Both the position numbers and the translations under genes were made by a program. A DNA stretch of 64,000 nt, taken from positions 30,725-94,724 of the forward strand of contig CACNWV010000003.1 of the NCBI GenBank assembly GCA_902624195.1. Reading direction: 5' to 3'. The notes under the pieces are model-generated. The model saw only the letters and a list, made by a program, of their open reading frames with translations, had not been told where the DNA came from and ran no database searches. Positions 56,075-57,031 of the stretch are shown here, one piece after another (positions within the stretch are counted from its first letter, which is position 1; the number at the start of each line of letters is the position of its first letter). This DNA comes from an uncultured Pelagibacteraceae bacterium (GTDB taxonomy: Bacteria; Pseudomonadota; Alphaproteobacteria; Pelagibacterales; Pelagibacteraceae).

Positions 56075-56156
56075 AAATATCCCCAAAAAAAAATAAAAAA
56101 ACCAATAAAATTGGCCTTTTTTGATGAAAAAAACACTTCACTGTAACTTTTTTTTT

Positions 56157-56229
56157 TACTATGGTTCCCGACAAGTTACTCGGTAGTGAGTAAGATTATC
56201 ACTTGTCCGGGTAGTTTATATATAAACTA
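56157..56229 (+). promoter_or_regulatory. Structured leader/control region of proteorhodopsin
   Basis: A -10-like TACTAT (56157-56162) precedes a nested hairpin. Outer stem CCCGACAAGT (56167-56176) pairs with ACTTGTCCGGG (56201-56211), ten pairs with one bulged C. Inside it TACTC/GAGTA (56177-56181/56188-56192) closes a GGTAGT loop, with an unpaired AGATTATC on the 3' side. Immediately after comes a perfect 18-bp palindrome, TAGTTTATATATAAACTA (56212-56229). No T run follows, so it is not a simple terminator. The function is inferred: a structured 5' UTR or a binding site for a dimeric regulator. Confidence 0.55.
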
Positions 56230-56243
56230 AACGAAAACTAAAC
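56224..56243 (+). repeat. Short tandem AAACTAAAC repeat before the proteorhodopsin start
   Basis: AAACTAAAC occurs twice (56224-56232 and 56235-56243) with an 11-bp period, in a G-poor, A-rich stretch ahead of the GGGAGG ribosome-binding site (56250-56255). It probably keeps the ribosome landing site unstructured; it could also be a regulator site. Confidence 0.4.
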
Positions 56244-56260
56244 AAACGAGGGAGGTTTTC

Positions 56261-57031
56261 ATGAGAAAATTAGGTCTTTTTGCATTAGCAGCTGTTGCCT
56301 TTTTAGGTATTACTAGCTCAGCTAACGCAGCGACTGCATTGTTACAAACGAATGACTTCGTAGGAATTTCATTCTGGCTTGTATCAATGGGAATGATAGC
56401 TACAACTGTATTTTTCTTTTTAGAAAGAGGAACTGTTGCTGCATCATGGAGAACATCTTTAACAGTAGCTGGACTTGTAACTGGTGTTGCATTTGTTCAC
56501 TACATGTATATGAGAGAAGTTTGGGTGTCTACAGGTGACTCACCAACGGTATATAGATATATCGATTGGTTAATTACTGTGCCACTTCAAATGATCGAAT
56601 TCTATCTAATTTTGGCAGCTGTTAGAAAGGTGCCAACTTCTATATTCTGGAAGCTATTAATTGGTTCATTAGTAATGTTAATCGGTGGATACTTAGGTGA
56701 AGCTGGTTATATTCAACCTTTTGTAGGTTTCGTAATTGGAATGGCTGGATGGATTTACATCTTGTTTGAAATATTCTCTGGTGAAGCTGGAACGATGGCA
56801 GCCAAAGCTGGTAACAAAGCTATGGCGACTGCTTTTAGCGCTATGAGAATAATCGTAACAATCGGTTGGGCGATTTATCCTTTAGGATATATTTTCGGAT
56901 ACCTAACTGGTGGTGTTGACGCAAATGCTTTAAACGTTATTTATAACTTAGCTGACTTTATTAACAAGATCGCTTTTGGTCTAGTTATCTGGGCAGCAGC
57001 AATGCAAAACACAAGATTATCATCTAGATAA
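56261..57031 (+). CDS. Proteorhodopsin, blue-tuned light-driven proton pump
   Basis: The 256-aa seven-helix protein has a signal peptide (MRKLGLFALA to SANA). YRYIDWLITVPLQMIEF carries the proton acceptor D102 (D97 in the reference green proteorhodopsin), the spectral residue Q110 (position 105) and the proton donor E113 (E108). ADFINKIAFG carries the retinal lysine K236 (K231). H80 corresponds to the H75 partner of the acceptor. Glutamine at the tuning site means blue absorption. A strong GGGAGG site 5 nt before ATG suggests high translation. A terminator follows, then ferredoxin and reductase genes. Confidence 0.97.
   Translation: MRKLGLFALAAVAFLGITSSANAATALLQTNDFVGISFWLVSMGMIATTVFFFLERGTVAASWRTSLTVAGLVTGVAFVHYMYMREVWVSTGDSPTVYRYIDWLITVPLQMIEFYLILAAVRKVPTSIFWKLLIGSLVMLIGGYLGEAGYIQPFVGFVIGMAGWIYILFEIFSGEAGTMAAKAGNKAMATAFSAMRIIVTIGWAIYPLGYIFGYLTGGVDANALNVIYNLADFINKIAFGLVIWAAAMQNTRLSSR

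Follow-up and report, generated by a model that had tools for sequence, protein, structure and literature searches.

How the amount of proteorhodopsin (PR) is set in SAR11 bacteria is a question raised by the sequence directly upstream of the PR gene. Much of the PR in the ocean, where it is a major light-harvesting system, is carried by SAR11, which are among the most abundant bacteria there. Expression of the pump looks constitutive, and the genome has very few regulators; here a conserved leader that is specific to PR offers a definite point of control that can be tested, and it is also a structural marker for reading metatranscriptomes.

We analyzed a stretch of 64,000 nucleotides (the window) from an uncultured Pelagibacteraceae bacterium; all coordinates refer to the window and all features lie on its forward (+) strand. 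The PR gene (56261-57031) is an open reading frame of 256 amino acids and the sole gene with the leader in front. PR homologues are present in 127 of the 169 genomes of the window's genus (g1). The comparative set comprised 154 usable PR upstream leaders from three SAR11 genera, g1 and two further genera of the same family (g2 and g4), including 106 g1 leaders and 39 g4 leaders. Throughout this set the conserved leader RNA consists of three hairpins in series, hp1, hp2 and hp3.

Pairing in hp1 is retained while its sequence changes

Hairpin hp1 (56178-56212, ACTCGG-T-AGTGA / TCACT-TGT-CCGGGT) adjoins hp2. An anchored hairpin was found in 152 of the 154 leaders, with its 3' end at most 1 nt from hp2. 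The sequence of hp1 evolves fast and is wholly different among clades with pairing retained, as seen in the arms of L069 (ATCTAGTAATGA/TCGTTTACTAGAT), L168 (GGTCTAAAT/ATTTAGACC) and L182 (GACTTAAAC/GTTTAAGTC). To compare own and foreign arms, we used 27 representatives with less than 70% identity: hp1 reaches -9.67 kcal/mol with its own arms versus -2.35 kcal/mol with arms exchanged between species, a result obtained in 0 of 100,000 permutations and also valid inside g1 and inside g4. The native energy was reached by 48 of 2700 dinucleotide shuffles.

Two-sided changes were present in six of the eight hp1 pairs in 20 g4 sequences of equal length, and the covariation score of g4 hp1 was higher than in all 500 shuffles and was lost in all slid-partner controls. 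A phylogeny-aware G-test (R-scape-like), applied per pair with the structure given, yielded best E values of 0.002 in g4 and about 0.02 in g1; this per-pair support is modest and the power weak, because length changes in hp1 blur the sequence-based alignment. GNRA or UNCG loops close 15 of 30 distinct tetraloop hairpins in g4 versus 2.7% in the background, which points to hp1 acting as RNA rather than DNA, and hp1 would then be part of the transcript.

Two loop sequences recur. In the g2 leaders L152-L159 the apical loop of hp1 is kept as GGAGAUA, similar to a Shine-Dalgarno sequence, and the loop CCGCGA is common to five leaders with diverged stems (L097, L104, L105, L108 and L109).

A GC-rich hairpin followed by a U-rich stretch could also act as a conditional terminator, making the leader a transcription attenuator. 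By eye, the genera g7, g9 and g12 show a GC-rich hairpin leading into a T-run, immediately followed by the palindrome and Shine-Dalgarno sequence. However, only four of the eight nucleotides after hp1 are U in most g1 leaders, no terminator was called in the window leader and no conserved antiterminator partner was found, so that we regard attenuation as very unlikely.

The ribosome-binding site is held in a covarying hairpin

Hairpin hp3 (56233-56260) is formed by GAAAACT (56233-56239) and GGTTTTC (56254-56260). Its loop holds most of the Shine-Dalgarno sequence GGGAGG (56250-56255), of which GGGAG is invariant in an alignment of 23 sequences, and the AUG follows directly after the stem. The two arms change in a coordinated manner between three states: GAAAACU/GGUUUUC in g1 and g2, AAAAACU/AGUUUUU in g4 and L110, and GAAACU/GGUUUC in L108 and L109. 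Judged from these comparisons, pairing in both hp1 and hp3 is kept through compensatory changes, the hallmark of a cis-acting structured leader, and we class the PR leader, which at least three genera retain, as a structured mRNA leader that acts in cis.

Hairpin hp3 is predicted to gain stability on cooling, from -3.8 kcal/mol at 37 C to about -8 kcal/mol near 18 C and -10.8 kcal/mol at 5 C. In RNA thermometers such as fourU and ROSE the Shine-Dalgarno region is covered by a weak AU-rich hairpin that becomes less stable when warm. Hairpin hp3 resembles them in being weak and AU-rich and in its predicted loss of stability with rising temperature; unlike in thermometers, the U-tract pairs with an A-tract and not with the Shine-Dalgarno sequence, most of which lies in the loop.

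The outer stem and the two-state switch are local features

The initial annotation had described a ten-pair outer stem enclosing an inner hairpin, a palindrome, two repeats and a strong ribosome-binding site. All these elements are present: the outer arms at 56167-56176 and 56201-56211, the inner hairpin, the palindrome at 56212-56229, two AAACTAAAC repeats (56224-56245) and GGGAGG at 56250-56255. The minimum free energy fold of this strain (-25.8 kcal/mol, with 8 of 200 shuffles equally good) includes the outer stem (56167-56211), which competes with hp1 as a strain-level alternative fold. As a conserved fold it does not hold, since a stem of at least eight pairs is found in just 9 of 106 g1 leaders. 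The compensatory changes across SAR11 leaders on which the annotation had staked its reading do exist, in hp1 and hp3, and its broader view of an ordered, PR-specific leader of the control type is borne out by the conservation found here.

In the predicted ensemble of this strain, an RNA whose first nucleotide is 56170 or earlier favours the outer stem, and at 37 C starts at 56171-56173 favour the conserved hp1. The choice of fold shifts with the RNA start; therefore, the start site matters. The annotation had further suggested that TTCCC pairs with GGGAG as an anti-Shine-Dalgarno segment, giving a two-state RNA switch. Such pairing is possible only in an RNA that begins no later than about 56167, and 45 of 106 g1 leaders and 38 of 39 g4 leaders lack the TTCCC partner; the switch is not conserved, and together with the outer stem it would be local to a small clade at most.

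Ligand or light had been named as possible signals. The free variation of the hp1 loop among clades makes a ligand aptamer unlikely: a conserved unpaired aptamer core, as in a riboswitch, was not found, the loops being clade-specific. The alternative folds of this strain are close in energy, as a ligand riboswitch or the two-state switch would need, but the rarity of the alternative stem, the poor conservation of the anti-Shine-Dalgarno segment, the freely varying loop and the lack of an Rfam match make either of these extremely improbable. Control by light is unlikely because SAR11 PR has been reported as constitutive and light-independent (PMC3090418).

The palindrome hp2 has a symmetric centre

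Hairpin hp2 (56212-56229) is a perfect palindrome of 18 nt, TAGTTTATATATAAACTA, which as RNA forms a stem of 7 bp with a loop of 4 nt and is present at one site per genome, at PR. Its form is TAGTTTA-N4-TAAACTA in g1, 16 or 18 nt long in g4 and 20 nt in L086. Parsimony changes per column in g1 are mostly 0-1 from hp2 to the AUG versus roughly 10-25 in hp1. The four central bases were left unconstrained (NNNN) in the search pattern, yet they are AATT, TATA, ATAT or TTAA in 119 of the 119 matches listed, and palindromes of 16 nt have the centre TA. About 12 centre changes were inferred, each ending symmetric. The inner two bases are unable to pair within the hairpin; thus, a centre that is symmetric in every lineage is not required by an RNA hairpin alone. 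It is a real puzzle, which none of the explanations considered here appears to fit fully.

At the same place other SAR11 lineages have different perfect palindromes, TTTTTGTTTAAACAAAAA in g7, g9 and g12 and TAATTTTATAAAATTA or close relatives in the family f2, and the long palindrome is missing from a few divergent leaders (g13 and some of g5). Among 585 control upstream regions, 7 contained such a palindrome of at least 14 nt. In L186, L187 and L193 (g7 and g9) the hairpin and T-run before the palindrome resemble an intrinsic terminator inside the leader.

A centre that stays self-complementary through all these changes, and perfect palindromes at this position in most other SAR11 lineages, would suit a double-stranded DNA operator of a dimeric regulator, located in the interval between promoter and gene, with hp1 and hp3 as separate RNA features. 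We nevertheless consider an operator unlikely. There is exactly one site per genome and sites with two mismatches are no more frequent than for the reversed control, and therefore no regulon; several sites per genome and a fixed half-site spacing, which an operator with a regulon would show, are both absent, the distance from GTTTA to TAAAC being 2, 4 or 6 nt. Furthermore, the outer bases are unequally conserved, in contrast to a symmetric site (the left ones vary in 18 of 154 leaders, the right ones in only 2 of 154), hp1 adjoins hp2 exactly, and the palindrome sequence is wholly different among lineages.

The same region might instead be recognized as RNA. A specific protein (autoregulatory, of the cold-shock type or unknown) could bind hp2 and the repeated AAACUAA as a regulatory RNA element, for which we see a limited chance. 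That such an element would switch translation by growth state or energy supply is likewise a tentative proposal. The hp2 arms and the 3' flank are invariant where drift could preserve pairing, the AAACUA repeat allows the 5' arm of hp2 to pair with either copy, and CspE/CspL have been suggested to exert post-transcriptional control in this organism (PMC2864753). On the other hand, light leaves PR content and expression unchanged (PMC3090418), no regulated behaviour is known and no candidate protein emerged. A sequence-specific factor acting on hp2, favoured by the symmetry of the centre, would be the main rival to the explanation we prefer (see below). A CsrA site and RNA dimerisation were also considered and judged implausible.

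The leader is specific to PR and may be new as a SAR11 RNA

A covariance model of the leader, which carries the hp2 pairs only and whose matches rest mainly on sequence, matched the window at E=3e-15, so that the leader taken as a unit lies well outside what chance would give. In 12 PR-bearing genomes it found one locus per genome, at PR, with E=1e-11 or better, and nothing beyond PR above noise (next best E 0.025). Exact hp2 arms occur in 103 of 169 g1 genomes, once each and always at PR among the matches listed. The palindrome is absent, too, from g1 genomes that lack PR, such as G138 (98% complete), G074 and G079 (all three 92-98% complete). Searched against 85,462 species, a longer hp2 pattern gave at least 119 loci, which among the matches listed are all from Pelagibacteraceae/Pelagibacterales; PR follows within 30 nt at 117 of the 119 listed loci, and the other two loci end before the gene. 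No such palindrome longer than 12 nt was found upstream of the retinal-forming gene blh; the second rhodopsin paralogues of some SAR11 genomes (L198, L199 and L200, 45% identical) are without the leader, and it was not found in viral contigs. The data demonstrate a conserved RNA structure, specificity for PR and a single copy per genome. Since the leader is kept in at least three genera and found only at PR, its function is very probably to set the amount of the pump.

The leader had been suspected to be an undescribed element, and Rfam agrees with this: at the gathering cut-off Rfam 15 gives only 5S rRNA and tRNAs in the window and no family at the leader, and at a relaxed threshold only chance-level matches. 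The cis-regulatory RNAs of SAR11 described by Meyer (2009) are the rpsB, rpsL and ffh motifs and SAM-V (PMC2704228). Like these, the PR leader is a clade-restricted structured leader in a streamlined genome with few spacers; unlike them, it lies upstream of PR, where none was described, and the word rhodopsin is absent from that text (PMC2704228). The main text of the GC-IGR survey of SAR11 HIMB5 by Stav (2019) presents protein-binding candidates (PMC6429828), among them palindrome-containing leaders, some confined to SAR11, which resemble the PR leader. Rhodopsin is not mentioned in this main text, and Table S1 of the survey could still list the HIMB5 spacer (PMC6429828). Thus, with no Rfam match and no rhodopsin in the Meyer text or the Stav main text, the PR leader may be new as a SAR11 RNA, an earlier listing in Stav Table S1 being possible.

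Transcription may start just upstream of hp1

A conserved CTTCACTGTAAC block lies in the -35 region (56136-56147), with CTTCACTGT present in nearly all g1 leaders. The CTTCACTGT block sits at a near-constant distance from a -10-like element, TACTAT (56157-56162), which is kept across g1 as TACTAT, TATTAT or TATTAA. A simple consensus scan called no promoter at the leader. Standard spacing to the -10-like box would place the transcript start near 56168-56171. In a metatranscriptomic study, the rhodopsin start of strain HTCC7211 ranks 10th by mdRNA-Seq start-site reads (PMC5069720). The strong conservation of the CTTCACTGTAAC block is compatible with either a -35 element or an activator site.

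A structured 5' UTR for steady expression of the pump

The best explanation, to which we give slightly better than even confidence, is that the leader is a structured 5' UTR of the SAR11 PR mRNA serving high, steady expression. Transcription would start just 5' of hp1, which would fold first near the 5' end, with hp2 stacking directly upon it. Together, hp1 and hp2 may protect the message against 5'-end-dependent decay and keep the ribosome-binding site from being caught in misfolded leader RNA. Hairpin hp3, together with the A-rich linker, would present the strong Shine-Dalgarno sequence in an apical loop beside the AUG, where this weak AU-rich hairpin (about -4 kcal/mol at 37 C) could govern the ease of ribosome entry. 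The outcome would be an abundant membrane pump made at a high and steady level, possibly tuned by RNA chaperones (CspE/CspL) or RNases. Stabilisation, gating of translation and a role of chaperones are thus the functions that we infer for the leader.

The leader of E. coli ompA is a structured 5' UTR stabiliser, in which a hairpin at the 5' end prolongs the half-life of the mRNA. The PR leader would share with it a hairpin near the 5' end, a single-stranded A/U-rich region with the Shine-Dalgarno sequence and an abundant membrane-protein mRNA. In contrast to ompA, the sequence is unrelated, hp2 is a sequence-conserved perfect palindrome adjoining hp1, and hp3 encloses the Shine-Dalgarno sequence. 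High, steady expression fits with the 10th rank of the HTCC7211 rhodopsin start by start-site reads (PMC5069720) and with SAR11 PR having been called constitutive and light-independent, light changing neither PR content nor expression (PMC3090418), and the post-transcriptional control by CspE/CspL proposed for the same organism (PMC2864753) makes a chaperone-tuned leader plausible.

A more far-reaching and speculative reading, with a rather low probability, is an order-wide PR control element consisting of hairpin, symmetric palindrome and gated ribosome site. A dimeric factor dedicated to this element would recognize it as DNA, as RNA or as both, and would couple pump synthesis to the energy state. 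The element might be older than SAR11, because the PR genes of other alphaproteobacteria, L385 and L382, are preceded by a hairpin and a palindrome. Upstream of PR in L385, which belongs to another alphaproteobacterial family, a TTTGAGC-TCTT-GCTCAAA hairpin is followed by the palindrome TTTAATATTAAA and AAAGGA, the same layout outside SAR11 as in the SAR11 leader. In L382 and L381 a hairpin with a shorter palindrome lies before PR.
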